A DNA stretch of 36,781 nt from Vicingaceae bacterium (lineage in GTDB: Bacteria; Bacteroidota; Bacteroidia; Flavobacteriales_E; Vicingaceae), in the NCBI GenBank assembly GCA_019429185.1, contig JAHYJH010000019.1, forward strand, positions 1 through 36,781, read 5' to 3'. The translations under genes and the position numbers were made by a program. Below the pieces are notes generated by a model, which was given only the letters and a program-made list of their open reading frames with translations, ran no database searches and was not told the DNA's origin. How positions within the stretch are numbered: position 1 is the first letter of the stretch; each line of letters begins with the position of its first letter. Shown here piece after piece: positions 18,182 through 26,779 of the stretch.

Positions 18182-18216
18182 AAAACAGACGCAACAAATT
18201 ATGAAGCGTCTGTTTT
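18182..18216 (-). terminator. Terminator-like hairpin upstream of the SET-domain gene
   Basis: AAAACAGACGC (18182-18192) pairs perfectly with GCGTCTGTTTT (18206-18216). Read on the minus strand the stem is followed by a T-rich tract, so it would end transcription coming from the DUF3127 gene before the SET-domain gene. Confidence 0.8.
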
Positions 18217-18218
18217 AC

Positions 18219-18411
18219 ACTCAACACACATAGGTTTCTGGAAATTTTGACGAATTTATTTTTTTCTTTATCAAGGCACGGCAAATAGCCAGTGGCTGTT
18301 TGAGCGAGTTTGTGTGTAAGCCAAGCATAGCATTAGTTACGGTTTAAAATTTTAACGCAGAGAAAGAGAAAAAGAAAGAGTGAAAAAACCGAAAAGCTAT
18401 GTGTGTTGAGT
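18219..18411. mobile_element. 193-bp element with 15-bp perfect terminal inverted repeats
   Basis: ACTCAACACACATAG (18219-18233) and its exact reverse complement (18397-18411) bound the element; after one mismatch three more bases match. Inside lies an off-centre hairpin, CAAATAGCCA-g-TGGCTGTTTG (18282-18302, one G-T pair), and a purine-rich tract at about 18356-18386. No reading frame of useful size is present. It separates the DUF3127 gene from the SET-domain gene and fills most of the 291-bp gap. Confidence 0.6.
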
Positions 18412-18433
18412 ATATATGGTAAAGTTATGTTAT

Positions 18434-24165: not shown

Positions 24166-24211
24166 AAACCTCCAAATTAAACCTTGGAGGTTTTTAAAAC
24201 CTCCAAGGTTT
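24166..24211 (+). repeat. Three-arm palindrome with alternative hairpins, including a 33-nt palindrome
   Basis: Arm 1 AAACCTCCAA (24166-24175) and arm 3 (inside AAACCTCCAAGGTTT, 24197-24211) can each pair with the middle arm AAACCTTGGAGGTTT (24179-24193). The 24179-24211 pairing is a 33-nt palindrome with 16-bp arms and a single unpaired T. It lies between the alpha-2-macroglobulin stop (24160) and the next start (24223). It could act as a terminator, mRNA stabiliser, or simply be a REP-like repeat. Confidence 0.75.
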
Positions 24212-24222
24212 CCTTAAAAGAA

Positions 24223-25239
24223 ATGAAACAACTTTTATTCATCATTATTATTTGGAGCAGCAACTTACAAGCTCAGTACCTTCAGAATACATCTTTTGAG
24301 GGTAAGTCGCAAGTAGGATTGCCACAAGCTTGGTTGCCTTTCGGACAAGCAAGTTCGCCCGATACACAACCCGGAATATGGAATGTACAACAAGTAGCTT
24401 CGCATGGAAATAGTTATATCACCATGGTAGCAAGAGGTTTTAGTATTATTGACAGCTATTTGTGGGAAGGATGTTATCAAAAGTTTCAACAACCATTATT
24501 GAGCAATCAAACCTATCATTATAGTTTGGATTTGGCTTTTGCTCCTGAATTTTTGGCTGATACCGTTCATTTCAATCGTCCTATACAATTAAAAGTATAT
24601 GGGATGAATGCTATTTTTGAGAAAGAGTTGCTTTGGGAATCAGGAAGTGTAGAAAACACCGATTGGGAAACCTATTTTTTTGAAGTGCAACCAACCATGC
24701 TTACCGAATATTTGTTGTTAGAAGCGTATTATTTAGAGCTACCCAAGTACAACGGAAATATCCTTATTGATAATTTACAGTTTTATCCTAATGGTTTTCC
24801 TGAAGAAAAAAAAGAACCTCTGATAATATTAGAAGAACCAGAAATTAAAAATCCGTATGAAATGGTAGTGACTATGGATGGAAAAGTGGATAGTGTGAAT
24901 GGAAGAGATGTAAAACTTAGAAAAACTTTACATTTTAACAGCGATGAAATTACTTTTACGGTTTGGGATAATCAATCTTTTGATGGAGATATTATTTCTT
25001 TGTTTTTGAATGAAAAATGTGTGCTGGATAACTACTTGCTCACCAAAGAAAAGCACAGTATTACTATACTGCTTGATAACACATCGGAAAATAGGCTAAT
25101 ATTATATGCCCATAATGTAGGCAAAATACCTCCCAACACTGTATCTCTATGGGTAAGTGATGGGACTACTAAAAAACGGATAACACTTTCATCTTACCTT
25201 ACCAGTTGTAGTGCTGTGGATATTGTGATTGGGGAATGA
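24223..25239 (+). CDS. Secreted protein of unknown function with beta-sandwich-like regions
   Basis: A 338-residue protein from the ATG at 24223, giving a clean signal peptide (MKQLLFIIIIWSSNLQAQ). An upstream TTG extension (24184) falls within the palindrome and is an artefact. Residues about 20-190 contain FEGK, IWNVQQVASHGNSYITM and FEVQPTMLTEYLLLEAYY, with the pattern of a carbohydrate-binding-like jelly roll ending ILIDNLQFYP. Residues about 225-338 (GKVDSVNGRDVKLRKTLHF, ITFTVWDNQSFDGDIISLFL, IVIGE) form a second beta-rich domain that I recognise from other Bacteroidota secreted proteins but cannot name. No catalytic residues stand out. It follows the alpha-2-macroglobulin gene by 62 bp and may be co-transcribed. 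Confidence 0.75.
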   Translation: MKQLLFIIIIWSSNLQAQYLQNTSFEGKSQVGLPQAWLPFGQASSPDTQPGIWNVQQVASHGNSYITMVARGFSIIDSYLWEGCYQKFQQPLLSNQTYHYSLDLAFAPEFLADTVHFNRPIQLKVYGMNAIFEKELLWESGSVENTDWETYFFEVQPTMLTEYLLLEAYYLELPKYNGNILIDNLQFYPNGFPEEKKEPLIILEEPEIKNPYEMVVTMDGKVDSVNGRDVKLRKTLHFNSDEITFTVWDNQSFDGDIISLFLNEKCVLDNYLLTKEKHSITILLDNTSENRLILYAHNVGKIPPNTVSLWVSDGTTKKRITLSSYLTSCSAVDIVIGE

Positions 25240-25242
25240 AAA

Positions 25243-25275
25243 AATCCTAACAGGTTTTTAAAACCTGTTAGGATT
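25243..25275. repeat. 33-nt palindrome just after a stop codon
   Basis: AATCCTAACAGGTTTT and AAAACCTGTTAGGATT form 16-bp arms around one T. It starts 3 bp after the stop of the secreted protein gene. The centre GGTTTTTAAAACC is identical to that of the palindrome at 24179, but the outer word is CCTAACAGG rather than CCTTGGAGG. It may work as a terminator or 3' end stabiliser. Confidence 0.8.
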
Positions 25276-25326: not shown

Positions 25327-25486
25327 AGGGTCTGTAATGAAATAAACTATACATTTAGCCTTGCTCTTTTGCTCGCTAATTGCGTTGAAAATACTCGCCA
25401 TAGCGTTGCTATGTCTGTGTTTTTCGTCTTATTAGCAAACAAAATAACTTCGCCTATTCTGTACACTTTATTTCATTACAGACCCT
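25327..25486. mobile_element. 160-bp full-length hairpin element
   Basis: AGGGTCTGTAATGAAATAAA (25327-25346) and its exact reverse complement (25467-25486) form 20-bp perfect ends. The middle also pairs imperfectly (for example TTTTGCTCGCTAAT against its opposite arm) and ends in a perfect tip, CATAGC-gtt-GCTATG (25399-25413), at the exact centre. The whole element therefore folds into one hairpin with a 3-nt loop. It encodes nothing. It fills most of the 256-bp gap between the secreted protein gene and the 3' end of the MFS gene. Confidence 0.75.
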
Positions 25487-25495
25487 AAGTGGTAG

Positions 25496-26779
25496 TTAAA
25501 GTTGCGACAAGTTTTTTGTATTCTGATTTTGAACCTTTTGTTTTATTCTTAAGAGTAATAAAAAACCAATGACAAAGAAAATAAGTAACATCAGCACGGA
25601 GGTGCGAATACTAAAAAAACCTTCGATAAGCCCAAAGAAGAAAGTACCTATTACAACGCCCATTTTTTCAAGTACGTCATAGAAACTAAAATAGGAAGTG
25701 GTATCTGTGGTATCGGGTAGCATTTTTGAATAGGTTGAGCGTGATAACGATTGTATTCCCCCCATCATTAAACCAATTACCCCTGCAATGATATAAAAAT
25801 GAAGCGGTGTGTAAACAAAACTATAGGAAACAATGCAAATCATTGCCCAAATAAACACTACAATTTGAAGTGTTTTTATGTTGCCAATACGTTGGGAGAT
25901 GTGAGCCATTAAATGTGCTCCAACTATTGCAATAAATTGGATTACTAAAATACTAATGATTAACCCTGTTTGCATTTCTGCTTCGCTTTTCCATGCAATT
26001 TCCTTAGTCCCAAAAAAAACTGCCATCAGCATTATTGTTTGAACGCCCATGCTGTAAATAAAAAAAGCGGAAAGGTATTTTTTTATTGTGTGTTGATTTT
26101 TCAATTGTTTGAATACGAATGCAAGTTCTTGAAATCCTTTTTTTAATCTATTTCCTGTTGGTTTTTTATTGAATGTGTTGGTTGGTAAGTGTTTGAATGT
26201 GATTTGACTAAATCCTATCCACCACATTCCTGTTAACACAAAAGTGTATTTTGCTTCTATTCCAACAACTTGTATCAATACCAAACAAATAATAAGTAGT
26301 AGGGAACTTCCTATATATCCTCTGCCAAAACCTGTTGCGCTAATTTTATCGTGCATATCGGGAGGTGCAATTTCTGGTAAATAGGCATTGTAAAAAACCA
26401 AACTACCTGAAAAACCAACACTTGCAAGTAAAACAGACAACATACTCCATTCCAAGTTTTCTACATTAAAAAAATACAAACTCATGCAGGAGGTTGCTCC
26501 TAAATAGCAGAAAAATTGCATATATTTTTTTTTGTTTCCCGAATAATCAGCCATACCAGATAATAATGGAGATAGAAAAGCTATGATGATAAAGGATAAT
26601 GAAACTACATAAGAATACAACTCTGTGTTGATAAATGTTTTGTTAAAGAACATCACTTCTTCGGTTGTGATGGTGTTATAAAAAATAGGAAAAATAGCAG
26701 TAGTGATAATGAGCGGATAAACAGAGTTTGCCCAATCGTACATTATCCAAGCGTTAATAATCTTTTTTTGTTGAGACAT
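25496..26779 (-). CDS. UMF1/Atg22-type MFS transporter
   Basis: Inner-membrane permease of 427 residues with about 12 transmembrane helices. The N-terminus carries the family mark WIMYDWANSVYPLII (about 12-26), and the loop AGMADYSGNKKKYM (about 75-88) is the MFS loop 2-3 signature. The domain corresponds to the vacuole effluxer Atg22-like/UMF1 family, found widely in bacteria with unknown substrate. The second half includes LMMGGIQSLSRSTYSKMLP (about 341-359). It is last in a minus-strand run of five genes (30638 to 25496), 56 bp after a lipoprotein gene, so it may export or import a component of the same envelope pathway. The assignment is by family; the substrate is unknown. Confidence 0.9.
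   Translation of the reverse strand: MSQQKKIINAWIMYDWANSVYPLIITTAIFPIFYNTITTEEVMFFNKTFINTELYSYVVSLSFIIIAFLSPLLSGMADYSGNKKKYMQFFCYLGATSCMSLYFFNVENLEWSMLSVLLASVGFSGSLVFYNAYLPEIAPPDMHDKISATGFGRGYIGSSLLLIICLVLIQVVGIEAKYTFVLTGMWWIGFSQITFKHLPTNTFNKKPTGNRLKKGFQELAFVFKQLKNQHTIKKYLSAFFIYSMGVQTIMLMAVFFGTKEIAWKSEAEMQTGLIISILVIQFIAIVGAHLMAHISQRIGNIKTLQIVVFIWAMICIVSYSFVYTPLHFYIIAGVIGLMMGGIQSLSRSTYSKMLPDTTDTTSYFSFYDVLEKMGVVIGTFFFGLIEGFFSIRTSVLMLLIFFVIGFLLLLRIKQKVQNQNTKNLSQL

Follow-up and report, generated by a model that had tools for sequence, protein, structure and literature searches.

The window analysed here is a stretch of 36,781 nucleotides from the draft genome of a Vicingaceae bacterium, and positions 25327–25486 within it lie between a plus-strand ORF without a Pfam match (24184–25239) and the 3' end of an MFS-type transporter gene on the minus strand (25496–26779; ATG22/MFS_1 by Pfam). 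A preliminary description had read these 160 nt as one long foldback with perfect arms of 20 bp and a CATAGC-gtt-GCTATG tip, and this reading was borne out: the arms are present at 25327–25346 and 25467–25486, and the fold runs through all 160 nt. Folded as single-stranded DNA, the segment reaches a minimum free energy of −28.5 kcal/mol, compared to −10.3 ± 2.5 kcal/mol for shuffled sequences (z −7.2; none of 200 shuffles as good), and the foldback is thus real and far beyond chance. No ORF of at least 80 aa overlaps it, so that, as far as we could see, it indeed encodes nothing. Towards the inside the arms are imperfect; since the bulges are conserved in relatives, these imperfections are not mere decay. 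Just behind the upstream gene lies a separate, terminator-like perfect 16-bp palindrome (25243–25275), of which no other occurrence was seen in the stretches analysed.

While the foldback occupies the bounds first proposed for it, the mobile unit is one nucleotide shorter on each side (Table 1). The outermost A/T pair is assigned to the target site because three other copies (L004, L020 and L024) differ there in the copy alignment. The 19-mer end of the resulting 158-bp unit occurs twice in the window, against 0.04 occurrences expected.

Table 1. Positions of the hairpin elements in the window and of their parts.
Feature	Position	Strand	Evidence
Mobile unit, GGG..CCC, 158 bp	25328–25485	− (strand with the conserved fold, the model strand)	Copies end here; covariance model R1 matches 25328–25485 on the minus strand, 161 bits
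Left terminal inverted repeat, GGGTCTGTAATGAAATAAA	25328–25346	+	76 exact occurrences in the own genome, and 16 others with one or two mismatches
Right terminal inverted repeat, perfect complement of the left	25467–25485	−	19-bp perfect pairing
Left target-site side, AAA; imperfect duplication, one letter off TAA	25325–25327		
Right target-site side, TAA	25486–25488		
Structured core	25351–25460	−	Match to the end-free covariance model R2 at 92.9 bits, E 3.6e-15; R2's 23 rows include the window copy
Hairpin tip, CATAGC-gtt-GCTATG	25399–25413		TAG/CTA of the tip nearly invariant in 85 cores
Second, divergent member, ends TACACTCAA/TATACTCAA, with an extra stem-loop module	18216–18414	+	R1 E 2.6e-9; R2 E 1.3e-9
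Extra module CACGGC-stem-CCAGTGG-stem-TGAGCGAG inside the second member	18277–18320 (approximate bounds)	+	

The element is multicopy and duplicates its target

A search of the element's own genome (a draft of 3.66 Mb in 232 contigs) placed the 160-mer at a minimum of 40 sites, with 25 copies at full length and 98–100% identity and many others cut by contig ends. A perfect 3-bp duplication, mostly TAA/TTA, flanks 23 of the 27 two-ended copies, four of which (L006, L016, L021 and L028) share one site within a larger repeat and so do not count as independent insertions; the window copy, with AAA/TAA, is one of the four exceptions to perfect duplication. Filled and empty versions of the same site were found for L014 (against L006/L028/L021) and for L017 (against L086), with the triplet single across the aligned junction; these pairs are repeats within the own genome rather than sister strains. 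The larger repeat shared by L006, L016, L021 and L028 has a palindrome of its own, CC(C/A)GACCTTAAGGTC(G/T)GG, with a paired change in one copy.

Matches were confined to four of the 60 relatives searched, a set that includes the own genome; in the other three of these four the ends are different. The pattern that the preliminary description had named as speaking for ordinary spacer DNA, namely a single copy lacking covariation and lying at the same place in all relatives, is therefore excluded, and the copy number and the empty sites rule out a single-copy palindrome. The exact end gave three matches in a database of genome contigs, all in unrelated taxa and taken as chance (the records of the own genome seemingly lie outside that set), and gave none in viral contigs; no hairpin was matched among the plasmid sequences searched.

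Taken together, the element displays the features of a miniature inverted-repeat transposable element (MITE): it is 158 bp long, non-coding and multicopy, has perfect 19-bp terminal inverted repeats, and shows both target duplication and an empty site. The window's class has GG(N)3TG ends and a TWA duplication (TWA-GGGTCTGTAATGAAATAA). Internal-deletion forms of 70, 113 and 147 bp also occur, as do about a dozen single ends, CTWA-GGGTCTGTAATGAAA (L066–L076 and L065:1987), joined to unrelated unique DNA at differing points, which are perhaps leftovers of hairpin deletion. Several of these single ends lie at gene 3' ends. An AAA_14/DUF4143 gene beside one end in L065 was weighed as possible cargo; this was rejected because the other end at that place belongs to a different hairpin.

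Compensatory changes preserve the fold of the core, with fixed bulges

Three elements from other genomes (L060, L062 and L063) form the same 159-nt hairpin as the window copy with other end letters. Across these four sequences, which constitute covariance model R1, 17 of 58 pairs are changed on both sides, and none of 500 shuffles scored as high. R1 found members in 9 of 46 family genomes and, in the own genome, many further members whose ends are quite different (TATACTCAA and GAAGTTGTTTGAA, among others). A second model, R2, was made from 23 cores that had been stripped of their ends and whose alignment (A6) used only the sequence.

In A6, 93.4% of cells pair and both partners change in 19 of 25 pairs, with a covariation score of 0.539 as compared to 0.186 when shuffled and at most 0.206 with the partner slid; as in alignment A4, the letters were aligned by sequence alone, though the structures were predicted from these alignments. 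Among 85 cores (from 84 stretches, picked out of a longer list of matches rather than being all members), both-side changes affect 24 of 25 pairs and the score is 0.686 against 0.189 shuffled, this alignment (A7) having been fitted to the model so that its pair counts lean to structure; none of these pair counts takes account of relatedness among members. The suggestion that compensatory changes along the imperfect arms would reveal selection on the structure itself is supported by both the sequence-only alignments and the 85 cores.

The unpaired letters show very little variation: the A of column 39 is present in 85 of 85 cores (100%), the AA of columns 98–99 in 94 and 98% and the G of column 101 in 96%, and the T and A of the tip occur in 85 of 85. 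On the window's minus strand the core reads 5' ..TTTT..stem..YRAGRC..stem..ATAGC loop GCTA..stem..AACGAAG..stem..AAAAGA.. 3'. The fold is thus kept by compensatory changes with fixed bulges, and the fixed CAAGGC/AACGAAG internal-loop motif points to a predicted binding partner. Hairpins of 38 stretches gave no Rfam match at a family's gathering score, and a known RNA family was rejected on this basis; L142 and L163 are overlapped by a few chance matches below that score.

Related cores carry unlike ends

The preliminary description had taken the hairpin to be unrelated in sequence to the other elements of the window. At the level of structure this is wrong: 18216–18414 is a divergent member of the same family with other ends. 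TA flanks most members of the TATACTCAA class to which it belongs, a candidate class of IS630/Tc1-type MITEs, though only an empty site would separate a TA target duplication from the end letters.

Six elements of group A (L062, L063, L194, L178, L158 and L186; compared without the window copy and the near-duplicate L138) have cores that are 85–95% identical and terminal 12 letters that are 42–79% identical, with the exception of the close pair L178/L186, whose ends are 92% identical. Within each of the six the two ends agree with one another, and the window core is 69–72% identical to their cores. Several unlike end classes thus occur on related cores, and seven or more end types were encountered across the class. 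Mapped onto a tree of 105 cores, the end labels require 30 changes, as against a possible minimum of 8 and 70 for shuffled labels; this outcome is rough, the tree being weakly resolved and the labels crude, with some classes misread (e.g. L258, L281, L288, L289 and L292). It suggests that an end class is for the most part passed on together with its core, with some switches, and that end changes are not frequent.

The core is dispersed over Bacteroidia

R2 matches 10 of 46 genomes of the order and 41 of 395 sampled genomes of the class, the latter corresponding to 23 of 196 genera with the own genus included (E ≤ 1e-4 per genome, E-values of both R1 and R2 being rough and the genomes mostly drafts). 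The match lists of the two models count some places on both strands and do not give copy numbers. Because R2 contains no ends, the ends of its matches provide an independent check: an inverted 12-mer match of 11–12 letters was found in 47 of 63 flank pairs and in 27 of 600 swapped pairs, and a TWA duplication beside inverted ends in 26 of 63 R2 matches and in 16 of 600 swapped flank pairs. The genera that carry the core have unrelated ends and differ in GC content (e.g. L244). We found no account of such a family in the literature searched, although one may exist. The initial reading of one long foldback element stands; it had missed the conserved bulged core, the class-wide spread, the variability of the ends and the other member at 18216–18414.

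We consider it highly probable that the element belongs to a Bacteroidia-wide superfamily of non-autonomous transposable elements (MITEs), in which a structured hairpin is carried by several transposases. MITEs are usually read as remnants of insertion sequences (IS) in which only the ends are important. An ordinary family of this kind, consisting of IS deletion derivatives with functionless interiors, would suit the window copies, which are typical MITEs, and its long inverted ends could be kept complementary by template-switch repair of quasi-palindromes. Because template switching rewrites the two arms together, it imitates compensatory change. Such repair would, however, remove bulges, yet the bulge letters are among the most conserved of the element in genera whose ends are unrelated and whose GC content differs, and cores that are more alike than ends are the reverse of a decaying interior; we accordingly regard this explanation as quite unlikely.

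One strand folds better, and insertions show no orientation bias

The model strand was compared with its complement in 71 representatives of 119 elements and gave the better fold in 69, by a mean of 12.5 kcal/mol. Composition-matched shuffles show a strand difference of 5.0 kcal/mol as well (62 of 71), so that part of the observed difference is composition. Mismatches on the model strand comprise 221 GA/AG/GG, 135 GT/TG, 93 AC/CA and 30 CT/TC/CC; the bias of purine-purine over pyrimidine-pyrimidine (221 vs 30) is clearer than that of GU over AC, though relatives share ancestry. On sequence alignments of three classes GU outnumbers AC by 131 to 49, with 33 to 26 in group A alone, and in folds made without GU by 32 to 17 elements (p 0.04). 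GU versus AC was therefore demoted from proof of strand to support. From these sequence comparisons, the evidence favours, without proving, a model strand that functions as RNA or ssDNA.

Insertions lie close to gene ends (87 elements: 27 copies of the 158-bp form and 60 others), and no orientation bias relative to neighbouring genes was detected among these 87, several of which have no neighbour in their stretch. A 3'-UTR or terminator role was rejected on this ground, the lack of bias giving no indication of a cis role in mRNA. The position near gene ends and the better folding of the model strand would both fit a hairpin that acts mainly in transcripts, as reported for Correia/NEMIS and ERIC, where it would place an RNase III or stability signal in nearby mRNAs and be kept for that. 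Given the missing orientation bias, and the share of the strand difference that recurs in shuffles, we judge this explanation unlikely.

A candidate helper transposase

On a plasmid of Pontibacter actiniarum, an IS5-family element with the inverted ends GAGCATGTTTAAATTTT and GAGCGTGTTTAAATTTC, separated by about 880 bp, encloses a transposase gene (WP_025603907.1; DUF4096 and DDE_Tnp_1 by Pfam). The hairpin L256, from a genome of the class, has ends GAGCATGTTTAAATTT and GAGCGTGTTTAAATTT, the first 16 letters of which equal those of the Pontibacter element at both ends, in a comparison between different genomes; L255, L267 and others have the end GAGCCTGTTTAAAT. Judged by these letters, the end class GAGCNTGTTTAAAT is plausibly that of the Pontibacter IS5-family element, making it a candidate helper. 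The latter's own flanks, TAA/TTA, are not an exact duplication, and it contains no hairpin core. For GGGTCTG ends we found no IS5-family counterpart, and short end queries of two other end classes against plasmids gave chance-like matches only.

Within the genus no helper was found, including any transposase of IS5 or Harbinger type, although a collapsed repeat may be missing from a draft of 232 contigs. A MITE usually, if not in every case, shares its ends with an autonomous element of its own genome. PF13359 is absent from the own genome (0 of 1) and PF13340 from the genus genomes (0 of 6), while six PF01609 matches all lack the element's ends. The own genome has no group A end pair about 1 kb apart around a transposase, and neither paired GAGCCTG ends in 10 genomes nor the ORFs next to single ends revealed a parent IS in this genus.

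The lack of a helper in the genus is also what one would expect if the core itself were recognised, a hairpin-specific recombinase rather than an IS transposase moving the folded single strand in the manner of integron cassettes and leaving the ends free to vary if paired. The wide variation of ends that still pair around a constant core and the strand-biased mismatches agree with such a process. TWA duplications and fixed end letters within classes are nonetheless the traces of a DDE transposase, and one end class equals an IS5-family end, which makes a recombinase very unlikely. From the ends, the duplications and the Pontibacter parallel we instead infer mobilisation in trans by a DDE transposase.

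A model for the element and its relation to known systems

Under the MITE reading, each member would be one imperfect hairpin of about 160 nt, whose outer 20 bp or so would serve as terminal inverted repeats cut and joined by a DDE transposase encoded elsewhere, and whose insertion would duplicate 2–3 bp of target (TWA for the window's class). Helper transposases would act in trans, and members may change helper by changing both ends together. The core may work as a folded single strand, as RNA or as ssDNA at replication, and some factor may bind it in that form, helping the element to spread or to be tolerated. A bolder proposal, which we put forward only tentatively, is that the core is a selfish structured nucleic acid, an RNA/ssDNA parasite of insertion sequences that would have persisted in Bacteroidia by repeatedly exchanging both ends for those of an available transposase, the core, read as one strand, being kept by a putative factor.

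We know of no ordinary miniature transposons that keep a folded middle while their ends change from family to family. The order is thus reversed relative to the usual view of MITEs, with the interior conserved as structure and the ends coming and going. This makes it testable whether non-autonomous elements are selected beyond their ends, and how they outlive the extinction of a helper; it also reveals a large family of structured elements, without an Rfam entry, in a major bacterial class.

IS5-family-type MITEs and Tourist/PIF-Harbinger MITEs have a TWA target and ends of the form GGG/GGC..TG. The window's class resembles them in its TWA duplication and GG(N)3TG ends, whereas other members of the present family have putative TA-type targets and unlike ends. 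Integron attC sites fold with conserved unpaired bases and a free stem sequence. The core described here shares both properties, but the element has a target duplication and inverted-repeat ends in place of integrase core sites.

MITECca01 of Cardinium, also in Bacteroidota, is about 240 bp long, derives from an IS982 element and is confined to one strain (PMC9769881). Like it and other bacterial MITEs, the hairpin is short, without a gene, bounded by terminal inverted repeats, present in many copies and presumably mobilised in trans; unlike MITECca01, it has a folded core that is common to a class and carried by several end classes. CREE is described as combining inverted repeats with a conserved core and as binding RNase III (PMC2649163). 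With Correia/CREE-NEMIS and ERIC the element has in common that all are dispersed, intergenic, imperfect palindromes of about 100–160 bp, and it differs from them in sequence, host group and interchangeable ends. REPINs and the REP-RAYT system (PMC3116915, PMC2817692) are likewise hairpin-forming, non-autonomous mobile DNA in many copies, while the present element forms one long hairpin, duplicates its target and varies in its ends.

An extra module and a hybrid member

The CACGGC/CCAGTGG/TGAGCGAG module of the second window member recurs in hairpins that differ in end class, at several positions within the hairpin, and its stems keep pairing although their letters differ. It measures 40–48 nt, with the three motifs fixed and a variable self-complementary stem (L139, L140, L143, L147, L151, L154, L156, L172, L174, L077, L079 and L080), and in the stretches scanned it was seen only inside these hairpins, L147 having two. 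One hybrid member, L065:3306–3476, has unlike ends, GGGTCTGTAATG and GGAATAGGCATG, yet is flanked by TTA on both sides.
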